NCBI GenBank assembly: GCA_016193065.1 | Contig: JACPSX010000245.1 | Coordinates: forward strand, 1 to 5,027 | Reading direction: 5' to 3' | Length of the DNA: 5,027 nucleotides | Source: Candidatus Tectimicrobiota bacterium | Lineage (GTDB): Bacteria; JACPSX01 | Shown: in pieces, positions 1-5,027 of the stretch | Layout of the letters: each line of letters opens with the position of its first letter | Position numbering within the stretch: position 1 is the stretch's first letter | Position numbers and translations under genes: made by a program | The notes under the pieces: generated by a model | What the model saw: only the letters and a program-made list of their open reading frames with translations | What the model was told of the DNA's origin: nothing | Databases searched by the model: none

Positions 1-68
1 GGATGGACCTGATTGAGGCTCGTCCTGTCCGCCGAGTTGACCAGGTGGTCAATTTACGAAACGAGTAG
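1..68 (+). CDS. Possible 3' end of an unidentified plus-strand reading frame
   Basis: A frame open at the left edge of the window reads ...MDLIEARPVRRVDQVVNLRNE and ends in TAG at 66-68. Only about 22 residues are visible and I recognise no family. Two things make it worth noting. Its stop codon is immediately followed, with no gap, by the stop codon of the minus-strand gene at 69-332, so the two would converge. Also, the bases encoding DLIEAR to RRV recur at 3431-3463, in a frame that again reads DLIEAR. It could equally be non-coding repeat sequence that happens to be open. The start lies outside the window or is the ATG at 3-5, for which no ribosome binding site can be seen. Confidence 0.22.
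   Translation, partial: MDLIEARPVRRVDQVVNLRNE
6..38 (+). repeat. 33-bp direct repeat, copy 1 (copy 2 at 3431-3463)
   Basis: Bases 6-38 match 3431-3463 at 31 of 33 positions; the mismatches are at 25 and 27. Similarity stops abruptly on both sides. It is unlike the C-rich/G-rich palindromes elsewhere in the window and contains no obvious inverted repeat. Confidence 0.7.
37..52. repeat. Perfect inverted repeat TTGACCA-GG-TGGTCAA
   Basis: Seven-base arms (37-43 and 46-52) are separated by two bases. The gap is too short for a good RNA hairpin and no T-run follows, so it looks more like a protein-binding palindrome than a terminator. It lies inside the possible reading frame that ends at 68 and just beyond the end of the minus-strand UPF0175-like gene. 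No role can be assigned. Confidence 0.45.
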
Positions 69-332
69 TTAGCGAGTACCCGAAGACTCCCCAGTTTGGG
101 CTAGCACGATCGCCATAAGTTCCTCACTAATCCAAAGCCCGGAGGCGCGCAAGTCCTCGAGGAATTCCACGCGTGACATCCCAGCTAACTGGGCAGCCCG
201 TCCGGATGACAACTTTCCCAGCTCGAACAACTTCACGGCAGCTAGCAGACGCAGATCCTGAGAAAAGGACTCAGGGTCTTGCTTCAAGCTGATAAGGGTT
301 TCCTCAGGAATTTCGATGTGGACAATTGGCAT
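69..332 (-). CDS. UPF0175-family antitoxin with a DUF3368 (PIN toxin)-like C-terminal tail; probable deletion chimera
   Basis: The 87-residue product has two parts. Residues 1-58 fit the UPF0175 family, usually the antitoxin of a PIN-domain toxin: a beta strand VHIEIPEETL at the N-terminus, then LLAAVKLFELGKLSSGRAAQLAGMSRVEFLED, including the helix-turn-helix-like GKLSSGRAAQLAGMSR signature. In normal UPF0175 proteins this continues into a GIPVFNYDPEELEEDL-like end. Here it is replaced by LRASGLWISEELMAIVLAQTGE, which instead resembles the C-terminus of DUF3368 PIN toxins (typically LRAAGFWISEELYEEVLRLAGE). The simplest reading is an in-frame deletion that removed the end of the antitoxin gene and most of an adjacent downstream toxin gene. 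ATG at 330-332 has GAGG eight bases upstream (341-344). The fusion is still an open frame, so a small DNA-binding protein may be made, but toxin neutralisation is doubtful. The family assignment of the N-part is firm; that of the tail is from memory of the family. Confidence 0.75.
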   Translation of the reverse strand: MPIVHIEIPEETLISLKQDPESFSQDLRLLAAVKLFELGKLSSGRAAQLAGMSRVEFLEDLRASGLWISEELMAIVLAQTGESSGTR

Positions 333-365
333 TCAATCACCCTCATTCGTCACATTTATTTTTAT

Positions 366-394
366 TTTGTACCACTGATTGACCCTTTATGCAA
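366..394 (-). promoter_or_regulatory. Candidate sigma70-like promoter for the UPF0175-like gene
   Basis: Read on the minus strand, TTGCAT (389-394) and TACAAA (366-371) are separated by 17 bases and lie 34-62 bases before the ATG. Each hexamer matches consensus at four of six positions. The stretch 350-370 is AT-rich, unlike the surrounding repeats. Confidence 0.4.
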
Positions 395-426
395 CCCATG
401 AAGTGAACAGGGGATTGACTGTCACA

Positions 427-498
427 TCTCCTACCCCCCATCGGGGGAGAATTCCTACAACCCTCGCCCCCTTTGGGGGGAGGGTGCAGGTCGGGGAA
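427..498. repeat. Two adjacent C-rich/G-rich palindromic repeats
   Basis: The first (427-452) is centred on CCCCC-ATC-GGGGG (435-447). The second starts at 461 with CCCTCGCCCCC (461-471), TTT, then GGGGGGAGGG (475-484) and the tail TGCAGGTCGGGG. Both belong to the family found at 1021, 1117, 1866-2245, 3225-3405, 4704 and 4946. They would form strong hairpins, but no T-run follows either one. They lie between the minus-strand gene at 69-332 and the pseudogene at 618-895. Confidence 0.7.
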
Positions 499-534
499 AA
501 CCGTCCCCTCCGCTCGCGGCAACTCCATCCGCCC

Positions 535-580
535 CCGTTCGTGCTGAGCCTGTTTCTCCCCGTTCGTGCTGGTGGAGCAC
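535..580. repeat. GTTCGTGCT repeat, two partial copies
   Basis: CCGTTCGTGCTGAGCCTGT (535-553) and CCGTTCGTGCTG (560-571) are tandem half-copies. The second can fold as GTGCT (566-570), five-base loop, AGCAC (576-580). The same motif forms a complete hairpin at 2057-2085 and a variant of it at 4860-4892, so this is a dispersed repeat family in the region. Confidence 0.6.
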
Positions 581-617
581 TTTATCCGAGAAGATGTGGA
601 GTGGGGCCTGCGTAGCA

Positions 618-895
618 ATGAATGAGAAGGTGATAACCGCCATTTGTGATGCGGGGCCAATCCTTCACTTGGACGAGTTAGGCAGCCTGAACCTATTAGC
701 TGACTTTCGCAACCCCCAAGCCCACATGGTAGTATCGGTATTCTCCTGCGGGCCATCCGCCGCGGTCAGCTCACCGCTGCCCAAGCCATCTCTTGCTTGC
801 ATGCCATCCCACAGCACTCTTCACTTCACATCAGTCCCGTTCTATTGCAGGAAATTATAAGCCGCGTGAAACAAGAATACAGGATTGAGGAATGA
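618..895 (+). pseudogene. DUF3368-type PIN toxin remnant: N- and C-termini kept, centre deleted, frame changed
   Basis: From ATG 618 the frame reads MNEKVITAICDAGPILHLDELGSLNLLADF, the first strand and helices of a PIN nuclease with its first catalytic aspartate (D11 in ICDAGP). After about position 715 the homologous frame changes. From about 725 to TGA 893-895 it reads HGSIGILLRAI, RRGQLTAAQAISCLHAI and ends in LQEIISRVKQEYRIEE, the characteristic C-terminus of DUF3368/COG2405-type toxins. A complete protein would be about 150-165 residues; roughly 60-85 central residues are absent, including the remaining acidic active-site residues. The original reading frame instead runs out into an unrelated stop near 860. 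It therefore cannot be an active RNase. There is no convincing promoter or ribosome binding site, and no same-strand antitoxin upstream. The frame switch is seen directly; the size of the loss is estimated from family length. Confidence 0.8.
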
Positions 896-1179
896 GCCCT
901 CGACCTGTTGCCTCTGATTTGTAATTTCCACGCTGTTCCCTCATCCCTCAGTCTTCATGCCGATCCTTCTCCTCTTTCCCGGAACGATCCCCTGTCCGTT
1001 CATGGAAAAGAACCTCTTTCTCCCTTTCTCTCACTGGGGAGAAGGGTGCAGGTGAAGGAAAATTGAGGCTGAAGAGGGGAGTCTTTCATGGGAAGCTACG
1101 ACGCGGCGAGCCTTACCCCTCCTCCCCCCATTGGGGGAAAGAGCCATCGGGGAAGGGACTGTCATCAGGCCTCTTACTC
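896..1179. repeat. Intergenic spacer with two palindromic repeats
   Basis: Bases 896-1018 are pyrimidine-rich and show no recognisable gene. Bases 1021-1045 form a C-rich/G-rich palindrome (CCCTTTCTC...GGGGAGAAGGG) with the GTGCAGGTGAAGG tail seen in sister copies. Bases 1117-1156 hold a second (CCTCCTCCCCCCATTGGGGG). The latter begins 24 bases past the end of the minus-strand antitoxin at 1180. It could act as a boundary hairpin, although no U-tract follows in that direction. Confidence 0.55.
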
Positions 1180-1518
1180 CTAACCTTTTTCGCCAACTTT
1201 GACCACGCGTCCTCGGATATCTCCTGTCGCACTCGGAAACAGCTCCTTTTTTATCCCCTCCGCCAACCACTGTCTGATGAGGGTTTGGTAGGGGATCGAT
1301 TTCATCGTGGCAATTTTGCGGAGGGCTTGGATCTGAGCCGGATCAAGCTTAATTGAGATGTTCTGCAGGCGTCTCGTCCTTCTTCCGCTCAAGATCTCCT
1401 TACGCAATTCTTCTTCCAGTGCGAACTCAACAGGGCTCTCATCAAGTTCGCTGAGCACCCCGGATCGATCGTAGTACTCTGCCGGGGTCTCCTTGACCTT
1501 GCCGGATCGCTTTTCCAT
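1180..1518 (-). CDS. CopG/BrnA-type ribbon-helix-helix antitoxin, partner of BrnT
   Basis: The 112-residue protein has an acidic, flexible N-terminal half (1-45, EYYDRSGVLSELDESPVEFA) expected to contact the toxin. A CopG-antitoxin DNA-binding core follows: the strand NISIKLDP (53-60), helix AQIQALRKIATMKS, then the family signature IPYQTLIRQWLAEGIKKEL (75-93). A basic tail, IRGRVVKVGEKG, ends the protein. The family acts as a dimer that neutralises its toxin and represses its own operon. The ATG at 1516-1518 lies three bases after the toxin stop. GGAGG inside the toxin's last codons sits nine bases upstream of it. Toxin-then-antitoxin order is normal for brnTA operons. Length and motifs suggest an intact gene. 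I leave the symbol blank because BrnA and the broader CopG-antitoxin family overlap and I cannot separate them here. Confidence 0.87.
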   Translation of the reverse strand: MEKRSGKVKETPAEYYDRSGVLSELDESPVEFALEEELRKEILSGRRTRRLQNISIKLDPAQIQALRKIATMKSIPYQTLIRQWLAEGIKKELFPSATGDIRGRVVKVGEKG

Positions 1519-1521
1519 CGT

Positions 1522-1797
1522 TCAGATCCTCCGATGCCGCTGGCAATATTTGCGCTCAGCTACATCCATGTCCCATCCCGTGACTACACGGACAAGGCCC
1601 TTCCCTTTTTTTTCAAAGACCACAACAAGCAAGCGGCCTGATCGGGTGCGCCCGAAGGCCGCATAATGGCCTCGCTTTGTCTTTCGAAAAATTGGGGCGA
1701 TGGCAAATATCTCTTCAGCCTCTTCTGGCTCAATCCCATGACCGAGCGCAACGTGCAACACATTCCCGTCATCCCACTCAAATCCTGAGATTCGCAA
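1522..1797 (-). CDS. brnT: BrnT-family ribonuclease toxin
   Basis: The 91-residue protein fits the BrnT family (RelE-like fold ribonucleases that inhibit translation by cutting RNA). It opens with FEWDDGNVLHVALGHGI (6-22), matching the family's FEWDxxK...KHGI start, then EPEEAEEIFA (23-32). GHYAAFGRTRSGRLLVVVFEKKG follows (43-65), then VRVVTGWDMDVAERKYCQRHR (69-89), equivalent to the usual RIISAR..T..ER..Y end. All blocks are present and length is normal, so it is probably functional. The start is TTG at 1795-1797: an in-frame stop lies 30 bases upstream with no ATG or GTG between, and GGAG sits seven bases before the TTG. A weak start codon would limit toxin output. An ATG at 1800-1802 belongs to another frame. 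It is co-transcribed with the antitoxin three bases downstream. Confidence 0.87.
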   Translation of the reverse strand: MRISGFEWDDGNVLHVALGHGIEPEEAEEIFAIAPIFRKTKRGHYAAFGRTRSGRLLVVVFEKKGKGLVRVVTGWDMDVAERKYCQRHRRI

Positions 1798-1813
1798 CCC
1801 ATATCTCCACTTG

Positions 1814-1848
1814 GTAATACATTACACTCCCCGAACATTTTTCGTCAA
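1814..1848 (-). promoter_or_regulatory. Candidate promoter and operator palindrome of the brnT-antitoxin operon
   Basis: On the minus strand TTGACG (1843-1848) is followed by TGTAAT (1821-1826) with a 16-base spacer, or TAATGT (1819-1824) with 18. Overlapping this -10 region is the inverted repeat GTAAT-AC-ATTAC (1814-1825). It is well placed for the ribbon-helix-helix antitoxin to bind and repress its own operon. Autorepression is family knowledge; the site assignment is inference. Confidence 0.5.
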
Positions 1849-1865
1849 GTGCCACCTCCGGTACT

Positions 1866-2245
1866 ACCCCACCCCCCATGGGCGGAGGATCTACCCTCAT
1901 ATCTTCTCCCCTCTCAGGTAGGAGGATTCAGCATCACATCTCCTCCCCCCTTCGCGGGGGCGGAACCACGCTGACATTTTCTCCCTCCCACACTGGGGGA
2001 AGGGTCTGGGTTAGGGAGCAAAGACCCATCCGTCCGTGCTGAGCTTGTCCACCTCCGTTCGTGCTGAGATGGTCGAAGCACGAACCCCTGTCCCCTTGAT
2101 TCGTCGTCGGGAGATATCTTCAACCCCTCTCCCCATCTGGGAAGAATCACCATCTTCCCTGCCCATCCGGGAGAAATTTTCGTTTCCCCGCGCCCCCCTC
2201 TGGGGAGAACCCATTTCCCCAGCACCGGGGAAAGGTGGGGGACTC
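1866..2245. repeat. Cluster of about eight C-rich/G-rich palindromic repeats
   Basis: In 380 bases there are about eight units of the form C-run, 3-6 bases, G-run, then GGAT/GAA/GGT-like tails. They start near 1870 (CCCCCCATGGGCGGAGGAT), 1904, 1938 (TCCTCCCCCCTTCGCGGGGG), 1981 (with tail GGGTCTGGGTTAGGG), 2122, 2152, 2186 (CGCCCCCCTCTGGGGAGAA) and 2215. Spacing is roughly 30-45 bases. Units differ in sequence, and the material between them is not a set of equal-length spacers. No gene is recognisable; frames that stay open through this block do so because the repeats lack stops. The cluster ends exactly where the receiver remnant begins. Confidence 0.65.
2031..2085. repeat. GTTCGTGCT hairpin repeat, one partial and one complete copy
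   Basis: CCGTCCGTGCTGAGCTTGTC (2031-2050) is a half-copy. It is followed by a complete inverted repeat, GTTCGTGCT (2057-2065), loop GAGATGGTCGA (2066-2076), AGCACGAAC (2077-2085). The 11-base loop matches that of the hairpin at 4851-4901 (GAGCCTGTCGA) in 8 of 11 positions, so both belong to one family. The copy sits inside the palindrome cluster. Confidence 0.65.
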
Positions 2246-2530
2246 TGGCGCCTAGCCTTCCCCCGCTCCAGCAAGCTTTTCACCCGGGTCTCCAGAATGT
2301 TCACCTCCCCCATTCTCCCGCTTGATCTTCTGGCACAGCCGGGGGATGTTCACGCTGGGCAGGTGAAAATCGAGGATCACCAGATGCGGCTCGCACTGCT
2401 TCACGCGCAGGAGTGCCTGGCGGTCATTCTCCGCCTCAAAAACCTGATAGCGCGCCTGCAAAATGCGCTTCAAGGTCGTGCGGGTATACGGGTCATTCTC
2501 GACCACAAGGACTCTCTTCTCCCTTGACAA
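2245..2530 (-). pseudogene. Response-regulator receiver domain remnant with its centre deleted
   Basis: Reading from TTG 2528-2530, KRVLVVENDPYTRTTLKRIL (5-24) carries the acidic END pocket (E11, D13). HLVILDFHLP (49-58) carries the phosphoacceptor D54. Homology continues to RLCQKIKREN (about 71) and then stops. From about 2313 a different frame reads GEVNILETRVKSLLERGKARR, which looks like the last helix of a receiver (compare GELLLRVRALLRR). About 35-45 residues between the two are missing, including the conserved Thr/Ser and Lys needed for signalling, and there is a frame change. Downstream the frame runs straight into palindromic repeats without its own stop. No ATG or ribosome binding site is visible upstream, so the true start may be lost too. 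Without an output domain it may once have been a single-domain regulator or a larger one. No partner kinase is present here. Confidence 0.75.
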
Positions 2531-2537
2531 CAGTTGC

Positions 2538-2566
2538 TTGACTGAGAAGGAATCACTGGGTATACT
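2538..2566 (+). promoter_or_regulatory. Strong sigma70-like promoter for the ribbon-helix-helix/MazF operon
   Basis: TTGACT (2538-2543) and TATACT (2561-2566) are separated by exactly 17 bases; each hexamer matches consensus at five of six positions. Predicted transcription would start near 2573, leaving a leader of about 48 bases before the ATG at 2621. It sits back to back with the receiver remnant, whose start lies at 2530 on the other strand. Confidence 0.65.
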
Positions 2567-2620
2567 TCATTTGCAGTTATAGCATCATATACAGCCTTTC
2601 CTGGAAAGGAGGCAAATCCA

Positions 2621-2848
2621 ATGCCGCGCGGCAAAATGGTTTACGTCTCGGAGGAAGCCCACCGGAAGCTCAAGCTACTGGCCGCCCGTCGCAACCGCCC
2701 AATGGGGGAGGTGGTCGAAGAATTGGTTGGACAGGAACTGGCGGATTTGCTCAACCTCTGGACGAGTCCGGAGGGCCTGATGCTGCAGCAAAAACTGCTG
2801 GCCCAGATCTGGGAGGACCCAGCCCTGGATGTCTACAATGATGATTAA
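2621..2848 (+). CDS. Ribbon-helix-helix antitoxin (CopG/VapB-like) of a MazF-type toxin
   Basis: The 75-residue protein looks like a complete small antitoxin. Residues 5-9 (KMVYV) would be the DNA-binding strand. Residues 11-24 (EEAHRKLKLLAARR) and 28-45 (MGEVVEELVGQELADLLN) are the two helices of the fold, and the acidic tail (EDPALDVYNDD) suits binding to a toxin. AAAGGAGG (2605-2612) ends eight bases before the ATG, and a good promoter lies upstream at 2538-2566, so expression is likely. The toxin gene overlaps its 3' end. Because that toxin has lost its centre, this antitoxin now appears orphaned. It may persist as an autorepressor or to counter related toxins elsewhere. The fold is recognised with good confidence; the specific subfamily is not. 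Confidence 0.82.
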   Translation: MPRGKMVYVSEEAHRKLKLLAARRNRPMGEVVEELVGQELADLLNLWTSPEGLMLQQKLLAQIWEDPALDVYNDD

Positions 2849-3060
2849 GCTCTCCCGTGGAGATACCGTGCTCGTGGCATTCCCCTTCGTGACTCAGACG
2901 CATGTGCAGCGCAGGCGGAGACCAGCCCTGGTGGTACAAGCGGATCGGTATAACCGTCGGCGGGCTGCCGTGATCCTGGCCGCCATCACCAGCAGCCGGG
3001 CTGGACCGCATCGACCAAGCTCTGGCAGATGCCCTCGGACTTGTCTCTTCGTCCACCTAG
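2829..3060 (+). pseudogene. mazF: MazF/PemK-type toxin remnant: centre deleted, frame changed
   Basis: The first frame reads MIKLSRGDTVLVAFPFVTQ from ATG 2841, then RRRRPALVVQADRYNRRR and AVILAAITSSR. These are the N-terminal strands of MazF-family endoribonucleases (RGDvvlvpFPF, kRRPALVV, AAITS). After about 2998 homology jumps one frame: GLDRIDQALADALGLVSSST ends at TAG 3058-3060, matching the usual C-terminal helix (LDRIDxALxxALGL). About 35-45 residues between them are absent. That segment normally holds the second catalytic strand region and dimer contacts, so toxicity is unlikely. ATG 2829 is 12 bases after GGGAGG; 2838 and 2841 are alternative starts. All three overlap the antitoxin's last codons, the usual translational coupling. 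Without the frame change the first frame would run to a stop near 3089 with an unrelated tail. Confidence 0.8.
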
Positions 3061-3263: not shown

Positions 3264-3345
3264 TTCCCTCGCCCACATCTGGGGAGAGGGTCTGGGTGAG
3301 GGGGCGCAGGTCAGGACAAGCAGGGTCAGTGTGAGGGAAAGGATC
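3264..3345 (+). repeat. 82-bp direct repeat, copy 1 (copy 2 at 4946-5027)
   Basis: Bases 3264-3345 match 4946-5027 at 79 of 82 positions, with 65 consecutive identical bases (3281-3345 and 4963-5027). The left part is a C-rich/G-rich palindrome with the tail GGGTCTGGGTGAGGGGGCGC. The right part (CAGGTCAGGACAAGCAGGGT onward to GGATC) is unique sequence found only in these two copies here. Copy 2 is cut by the window edge, so the true repeat may be longer only if copy 1's continuation after 3345 also recurs. The pair brackets the vapBC operon. Confidence 0.9.
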
Positions 3346-3367
3346 TACGAGGCAGCAGGAATTACGA

Positions 3368-3405
3368 CTCCTCCCCCCTCGCAGGGGAGGATGCAGGAGG
3401 GGGGG
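3368..3405. repeat. C-rich/G-rich palindromic repeat with GGATGCAGG tail
   Basis: CTCCTCCCCCCTCGCAGGGG (3368-3387) continues as AGGATGCAGGAGGGGGG. It is the closest relative of the repeat at 4740-4930 that is interrupted by a 155-bp element. It serves as the uninterrupted reference for that insertion. Confidence 0.75.
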
Positions 3406-3430
3406 AAGCGTCATCAGCCCCCATGGCGAG

Positions 3431-3463
3431 GACCTGATTGAGGCTCGTCGTGCCCGCCGAGTT
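3431..3463 (+). repeat. 33-bp direct repeat, copy 2 (copy 1 at 6-38)
   Basis: This segment matches 6-38 at 31 of 33 positions. As in copy 1, the plus-strand frame reads DLIEAR followed by RRV. The surrounding sequences share nothing else visible. Confidence 0.7.
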
Positions 3464-3619
3464 CGCCACCGAACCCGCTCCGACCCTCGACTGGGCCGCC
3501 GCCTCGTGAGCCGCGCCCCCCGCGGCCCCCACTCCTCCAACCTCTGACGCTTCATCGCCTCCTCAATCGCTCCCGGCAGATCCTCCGGCTCGCAGGCCCG
3601 ATCAACGGGCCATTCGCTC

Positions 3620-3690: not shown

Positions 3691-3918
3691 ATGCCGGCCG
3701 TGAAAATATTAGCCAAGGGTCAACTGGTCATCCCGGCCAAACTCCGCAAGAAATACCACATCCGGCACGGCTCCGAGCTCCAGATCCTCGAATACGGCGG
3801 GATGCTTCATCTGATTCCGCCTGTCACCGATCCGATCAAGGCCGCCGCCGGTTTTTTGCCCAAAAGGCCTTCTCTCGCCAAAAAGCTGTTGAAGGAGCAC
3901 CAAAAGGATTTTGCGTGA
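3691..3918 (+). CDS. vapB: VapB antitoxin, AbrB/MazE swapped-hairpin family
   Basis: The 75-residue protein starts with the AbrB/MazE DNA-binding fold: KILAKGQLVIPAKLRKKYHI (5-24), where GQLVIPAKLR is the family hallmark, then GSELQILEYGGMLHLIPP (27-44). Residues 45-75 (DPIKAAAGFLPKRPSLAKKL onward) form the flexible tail that normally wraps the toxin and blocks its active site. The family dimerises, binds its own promoter and is degraded by proteases under stress. AAAAGGAGG (3675-3683) ends seven bases before ATG 3691. Its TGA overlaps the toxin's GTG start. Length and motifs are complete. It lies in a block bounded by a promoter at 3620 and a terminator at 4583. Confidence 0.9.
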   Translation: MPAVKILAKGQLVIPAKLRKKYHIRHGSELQILEYGGMLHLIPPVTDPIKAAAGFLPKRPSLAKKLLKEHQKDFA

Positions 3919-4316
3919 CATCCCGACTCGTCTTCGACAGCAATGCTCTCCTCAAATTTTTCCAGGGAGAAGCGGGGGCGTCCGCCGTTGAAAAGTGGCT
4001 CCGGACGGCCGAGCGCCGGCGCTGGATCAAATATCTCTGCGCGATCAATCTGGGCGAAATCATCTACGCCACCAAACGCCAATACGGCGACCAGCGGAAG
4101 ATCGAGGTGCTGGGGCACATTCACCGGATGAACTTTACCATTCTTCCGGCGCCCGACGACTTGATCTTCCAGGCCGCGGAGTATAAGGCCGCATACAGCA
4201 TCTCCTACGCCGACTGTTTCGTCCTGGCCTGCGCGGTGAATCACGCCGCCGCAATTATCACCGGAGACCCGGAATTCAAAAAGGTCAGCCACCTTGCAAA
4301 GATCCATTGGGTCTAA
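3915..4316 (+). CDS. vapC: VapC toxin, PIN-domain ribonuclease
   Basis: The 133-residue protein is a full-length PIN-domain toxin, a Mg2+-dependent RNase of VapBC modules that typically cuts tRNA or rRNA. The four acidic positions are present: D8 in LVFDSNALLKFF, E48 in INLGEIIYATKR, D100 in ISYADCFVLACA and D118 in ITGDPEFKKV. The last motif and the final IHWV match the normal PIN ending. I chose GTG 3915, which overlaps the vapB stop by four bases (GTGA). It places the first strand at the normal distance from the N-terminus, and AAAAGGA lies six bases upstream. The same frame is open back to 3639, but that extension overlaps vapB and the promoter and has no family similarity. Coupling to vapB would keep antitoxin in excess. 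The gene appears functional. Confidence 0.92.
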   Translation: MTSRLVFDSNALLKFFQGEAGASAVEKWLRTAERRRWIKYLCAINLGEIIYATKRQYGDQRKIEVLGHIHRMNFTILPAPDDLIFQAAEYKAAYSISYADCFVLACAVNHAAAIITGDPEFKKVSHLAKIHWV

Positions 4317-4550
4317 ACTCTTCACTCCTCACTTCCTCACCAGTTCCTCAATCGCCGCCGCGACCAGCTTCCCGTCGAGCGCCGGCTCTCAGAAGAATTC
4401 GGGAAGCCGAATGAGCGCCTGACCACCGAGATCGGGAAGGTCAACCTGGAATTTGCCAGAGTCCGCTGTACTTCTCGCCTCTCATCTTCCGCATCCGGCT
4501 TTCCCGTCCCTCCTATGTCCCTTGTAGGCGCCAATGACCGAAACGATCAC
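4317..4550. other. Spacer after vapC with two weak coding remnants
   Basis: No intact gene is visible. On the minus strand, bases 4389-4329 read PALDGKLVAAAIEELVRK and stop, like a protein C-terminus of unknown family. On the plus strand, 4404-4460 reads KPNERLTTEIGKVNLEFAR, which faintly resembles the EIGxLKVELxFL segment near the end of IS3-family OrfA proteins. Both stretches are short and lack starts, and adjacent sequence is interrupted by stops. They suggest debris of older genes or an insertion sequence. Neither assignment is secure. Confidence 0.25.
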
Positions 4551-4583: not shown

Positions 4584-4703
4584 ATACTGAGAACCGATGA
4601 TCGTCTCGTTCCTTCCGGGTCTGCCAGGAATAACGTCAGGCGAATCACAAAAGCCTGGCGCACAACAAAAGAGACCTCGGTTACGATGCGCCGGGGATTG
4701 CCT

Positions 4704-4753: not shown

Positions 4754-4908
4754 GAGACTGTGTCGCAATCTGCCATTCGCCCTTCGACAAGCCTGTCCTG
4801 AGCGAAGTCGAAGGGCTCAGCGCGAACGGCTATGTGATTGACTTTCGGTTTGTCATCATCCGTTCGTGGTGAGCCTGTCGAACCATGAACGGATGATGAC
4901 ACAGTCTC
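4754..4908. mobile_element. 155-bp MITE-like element inserted in a palindromic repeat
   Basis: Terminal inverted repeats GAGACTGTGTC (4754-4764) and GACACAGTCTC (4898-4908) are perfect over 11 bases. They are flanked by the triplet TGG on each side (4751-4753 and 4909-4911), a possible 3-bp target duplication. Removing 4754-4911 restores CCTCCCCCCTGG joined to CGGGGGAGGATGCAGGTGGG, a normal copy of the repeat seen at 3368-3405 (about 3 mismatches over 35 bases). The element encodes no protein. Internally it holds an inverted repeat CCCTTCGAC (4780-4788)/GTCGAAGGG (4807-4815) and a 20-bp hairpin at 4851-4901. Movement would need a transposase in trans; none is visible here. Confidence 0.6.
4851..4901. 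repeat. Long hairpin with 20-bp arms inside the 155-bp element
   Basis: TGTCATCATCCGTTCGTGGT (4851-4870) pairs with ACCATGAACGGATGATGACA (4882-4901) at 19 of 20 positions; the exception is a G-T pair, tolerated in RNA. The loop is GAGCCTGTCGA. Its inner part (4860-4892) is a relative of the GTTCGTGCT repeats at 535 and 2057. The right arm overlaps the element's terminal inverted repeat by four bases. Confidence 0.8.
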
Positions 4909-4945: not shown

Positions 4946-5027
4946 TTCCCTCGCCCCCACCGGGGGAGAGGGTCTGGGTGAGGGGGCGCAGGTCAGGACA
5001 AGCAGGGTCAGTGTGAGGGAAAGGATC
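4946..5027 (+). repeat. 82-bp direct repeat, copy 2 (copy 1 at 3264-3345), cut by window edge
   Basis: It matches copy 1 at 79 of 82 positions, and the last 65 bases are identical. The mismatches all lie in the palindrome centre (4957-4962). The continuation past 5027 is not available. High identity compared with the diverged neighbours points to a recent duplication or gene conversion. Confidence 0.9.

Follow-up and report, generated by a model that had tools for sequence, protein, structure and literature searches.

Center-deleted toxin-antitoxin genes and receiver-gene fragments in a probably decaying, repeat-rich island of a rare-lineage MAG

The window, i.e. the whole stretch of 5,027 nucleotides analysed here, is all of contig C147 of a MAG of 2.9 Mb (294 contigs, 86% complete). 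Two further short contigs of this genome, C130 (4910 b) and C270 (4059 b), contain the window's material, and the three together make up an island of about ten toxin-antitoxin (TA) modules, which alternate with receiver-gene fragments and C-rich REP-like palindromes. The alternation of receiver fragments with TA modules is an unusual feature. Profile annotation placed five of the modules in the window, three of them broken. C270 carries MazE-PIN, DUF2281-PIN and MNT-HEPN modules and one extra PIN gene, while C130 encodes a UPF0175-DUF3368 pair, a broken AF2212-like/PIN module, a small-gene pair and an HTH_17 protein. Within the TA array of C130 (1657-2287), a small ORF overlaps a gene whose product matches a retroviral-type aspartyl protease domain (PF13975, 3.9e-17). 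Searching the genome collection for relatives yielded same-domain genomes only, the phylum search returned the genome itself alone, and the Rfam and tRNA scans of C147, C130 and C270 gave no matches.

C130 and C270 have an exact 75-nt end in common and overlap by 15 nt at their other end, where an HTH_17 antitoxin-like reading frame stays open across the overlap and meets its stop in C270 just before a PIN gene. As their ends overlap and this frame is open throughout, the two contigs are probably neighbors, possibly closing into an ~8.9-kb circle or else representing two arms with a shared terminal repeat. No full-length homologue of the overlap-spanning antitoxin reading was found in plasmids. 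In the window, an exact 65-nt repeat (3281-3345 and 4963-5027) has its second copy at the contig end, therefore the assembly stopped in a repeat.

Two TA modules of the window retain both partners. On the minus strand, a CopG/BrnA-like antitoxin (1180-1518) and a BrnT-like toxin (1522-1797; profile positions 1-69 of 77) are apparently full length, with scores below the curated cut-offs. On the plus strand, profile searches identified an intact MazE/AbrB-type antitoxin (3691-3918) and an intact PIN (VapC-like) toxin (3915-4316; profile positions 2-119 of 120). Downstream of the latter, at 4390-4470, a possible remnant of an IS3-like transposase was noticed by eye (EEFGKPNERLTTEIGKVNLEF). Pfam searches of the small remnants located here and near 3500-3600 found nothing, which leaves the IS3 suspicion unsupported.

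The remaining three TA modules are broken. The first locus, on the minus strand at 69-332, is an in-frame fusion of the N-terminal part of a UPF0175 antitoxin (profile positions 1-58 of 75, 2e-20) with the C-terminal tail of a DUF3368 protein (a weak match to positions 22-44 of 46). Its intact paralogue pair is located on C130 (UPF0175, profile positions 1-75 of 75; DUF3368, 163 aa), and a single gap of 484 bp suffices to align the chimera with it, the frame being kept. The join lies near 160-166 (GAAT joined to TCCTCGAG), an approximate position at which the shared sequence does not exceed 2-3 nt and no REP is present.

The DUF3368/PIN toxin remnant (618-895, plus strand) was compared with an intact 169-aa protein of a Methylomonas plasmid, whose gene adjoins a ribbon-helix-helix gene. 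Its N-terminal part corresponds to residues 9-30 of this reference (82% identity) and its C-terminal part to residues 117-165 (53%). About 86 residues (~258 bp) are absent from the center and the frame shifts within 708-724; the join, which can be placed only within this interval, is free of REPs, and any homology identifiable there does not exceed 2-3 nt. The lost residues 31-116 include the LTDD motif. When the two parts were searched as one concatenated query, only the remnant itself was matched in 192 genomes. A 35-nt repeat (700-734 and 1785-1819) was judged to be a chance match.

A MazF/PemK toxin remnant (2841-3060, plus strand) follows an intact ribbon-helix-helix antitoxin (2621-2848, plus strand), which is 79% identical over its full length to a protein of an Armatimonadetes MAG. 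In that MAG the antitoxin gene adjoins the gene of an intact 127-aa MazF protein, relative to which the remnant lacks about 157 bp of its center. The PemK profile covers only positions 2-49 of 109 in the remnant, i.e. less than a complete domain. The frame changes at approximately 2994-3002, and this join is free of REPs and of identifiable homology longer than 2-3 nt.

Not only toxin genes are affected. A response-regulator receiver (2236-2530, minus strand) consists of aa 1-75 and, in another frame, aa 109-132, numbered according to a composite built from the fragments. It is about 101 bp shorter than the REP-free composite and 129 bp shorter than a REP-bearing sister copy, and it lacks aa 76-108 with the YKPI lysine. 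We take this lysine, and the LTDD motif of the PIN domain, to be part of the signalling and catalytic centers, respectively. The sequence at the join near 2301-2309 (GAGAATGGGGGAGGTGAACATTCTGG) is compatible with two alternatives in the REP-bearing sister copy, the REP half GGGGGGAGG and a GAGAAT repeat of 6 nt; the possible microhomology amounts to 5-6 nt (GGGAG or GAGAAT).

Recognizable fragments of this receiver are confined to C147, C130 and C270, and all share one orientation if C270 is read in reverse. Three more were located in the window, all on the minus strand: a middle part at the contig start (5-44); a remnant without its N-terminal half, in which aa ~83-110 are followed by a REP and by the last codons and stop (3346-3470); and, from inspection of the aligned copies, a 3' end (last codons and stop) that adjoins REP palindromes (4682-4697). 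Most fragments on C130 and C270 have lost one or both ends. In the sister copy at 508-745 of C130, two C-rich REP-like palindromes flank aa 111-132; this piece is absent from window positions 3346-3470 and from C270 643-840, where REP sequence stands in its stead. Recombination between REPs would be a simple account of this loss. Neither plasmids (best matches below 40% identity) nor viral contigs yielded a close homologue of the receiver. At C270 840-970 and at C130 435-465 and 3825-3855, receiver stop codons are immediately followed by short tandem repeats of the AGAGCTGAGAGCCA type.

The original prediction held that four genes of the window (the chimera, the PIN and MazF toxins and the receiver) show the same damage, with both ends kept and the center deleted. 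An internal loss was confirmed at all four loci, each of which can be aligned on either side of one large gap with an intact homologue or composite (484, ~258, ~157 and ~100 bp, in the order of the genes just named). The reference homologues used for sizing were full length. However, the chimera comprises two genes, and the deletion removed the end of UPF0175 and most of DUF3368, so that each gene taken alone has suffered an end loss. The apparent uniformity is also selective: three further receiver remnants of the window (5-44, 3346-3470 and 4682-4697) are missing different segments. Three of the four joins do change frame, as predicted, which is close to the chance expectation of 2/3. The probability that a random single deletion is internal is approximately 0.20 for the chimera, 0.33 for PIN, 0.61 for the receiver and 0.42 for MazF. 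Taken together, four internal losses would be improbable for an unselected set, but these loci had been chosen out of a larger number of remnants.

Could a process peculiar to the island, either a slippage hot spot or REP-directed excision, delete gene centers? Such a mutator would agree with the density of REPs, with the replacement of lost receiver segments by REP sequence and with the number of center deletions, five in about 14 kb, the fifth being a 102-aa PIN toxin on C130 that lacks the middle present in a Kovacikia homologue. However, REPs are touched by the receiver joins only, and end losses are seen in other receiver copies. Nor are broken toxins limited to the island. In profile searches for PIN, PemK, DUF3368 and UPF0175, the toxins outside the island were mostly full length, with four partial ones (on C178, C277, C116 and C233), which by inspection carry mainly frameshifts and 5' losses. 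Broken toxins account for 5/11 inside versus 4/32 outside the island (p = 0.034), or 4/11 versus 4/32 (p = 0.17); as these counts were assigned by hand, the enrichment is only suggestive and marginal at most. Of the predicted local process (slippage or microhomology), real internal deletions, probably through short homologies, agree with the evidence, and the locality is repeat-rich; a special local process is not supported, and we consider an island-specific mutator unlikely.

The original prediction also invoked selection against toxic centers; in this reading, harmless ends and antitoxins would have been spared. Three toxins of the window and one on C130 are indeed center-deleted, and the antitoxin beside MazF is intact. 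However, the damage is shared by the non-toxic receiver, and in the chimera the end of an antitoxin is gone too. Moreover, since any inactivating mutation would suffice to disarm a toxin, central deletions are not favored in particular. Selection of this kind is not needed to account for the observations and seems very unlikely. The prosaic possibility raised in the original prediction, a systematic assembly fault, could draw on the repeat-rich nature of this MAG, with the 65-nt repeat at the end of a short contig and the 75-nt end common to C130 and C270. None of the four joins, however, lies in a repeat of k-mer length or near 65-75 nt, and the surviving parts differ by ~8-18% from their sister copies and are therefore not collapsed copies, which makes an artefact highly improbable.

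Based on these observations, we suggest, with a probability of roughly 80%, that the window is part of a decaying TA island belonging to a MAG of a rare lineage and eroded by ordinary short-homology deletions. This reading rests on the four deletions sized against intact homologues, on the fifth center-deleted toxin (C130), on the receiver array with its REPs, on the possible microhomology at the window's receiver join, on low Ka/Ks values and on the deletion-dominated erosion of bacterial pseudogenes (PMC2916853). The surviving parts have Ka/Ks of 0.08 (UPF0175), 0.13 (MazF N-terminal part) and 0.13 and 0.04 (receiver), so most of the divergence probably took place while the genes still functioned, with the breaks coming late. 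It seems that individual TA genes would become dispensable, after which ordinary short-homology (RecA-independent) deletions would cut out internal segments; in some receiver copies, REP-to-REP recombination probably removed segments. The breaks may be recent, and toxins would tend to go before antitoxins.

Contrary to what the original prediction assumed, scattered stops and truncated ends are not the general outcome of ordinary decay. Among Salmonella pseudogenes, short deletions rank first as single inactivating mutations, and accumulated deletions are the chief eroding force (PMC2916853). There, as in the island, unneeded genes are inactivated and eroded by deletions; the losses described here are larger (about 1/4 to 2/3 of a locus) and lie close together in a single TA array.

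Stockpiles of numerous TA modules separated by repeats are typical of chromosomal TA arrays and sedentary chromosomal integrons. The island resembles them in this layout, on which the comparison is based, and differs in that its repeated spacer consists of receiver-gene fragments and REPs. One might speculate that these spacers are recombination seams which shuffle, amplify and delete TA modules, making the island an integrase-free cassette array, maybe partly in the form of the ~8.9-kb circle of C130 and C270; we regard this as distinctly unlikely. If it were true, it would offer a simple integrase-free route for the growth and shrinkage of TA arrays. The island in any case provides a clear example of TA modules accumulating and dying in a repeat-rich array, in which sister copies display likely intermediates of REP-associated loss.

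The window also contains a MITE-like element (4754-4908) with inverted ends GAGACTGTGTC; it interrupts the loop of a REP palindrome and is accompanied by a duplicated TGG. Certain IS elements are known to target REPs and to insert at their symmetry axis (PMC1525189), and the likeness to REP/BIME and their IS elements extends to the multicopy palindromes, the position of the mobile element at the symmetry axis and the 3-bp repeat (PMC1525189). In contrast to those elements, the insert found here is MITE-like, only 101-205 bp long, and no transposase was identified. The pattern with GAGACTGTGTC ends matched 19 times genome-wide, and copies outside the window are located on C27, C28, C49, C52, C80, C87, C130, C131, C139, C145, C172, C200, C223, C226, C234 and C277. 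All 15 copies with both ends read lie in the middle of a C-rich REP-like palindrome, mostly with a 3-bp duplication (TGG, TCG, CTT or TTG).
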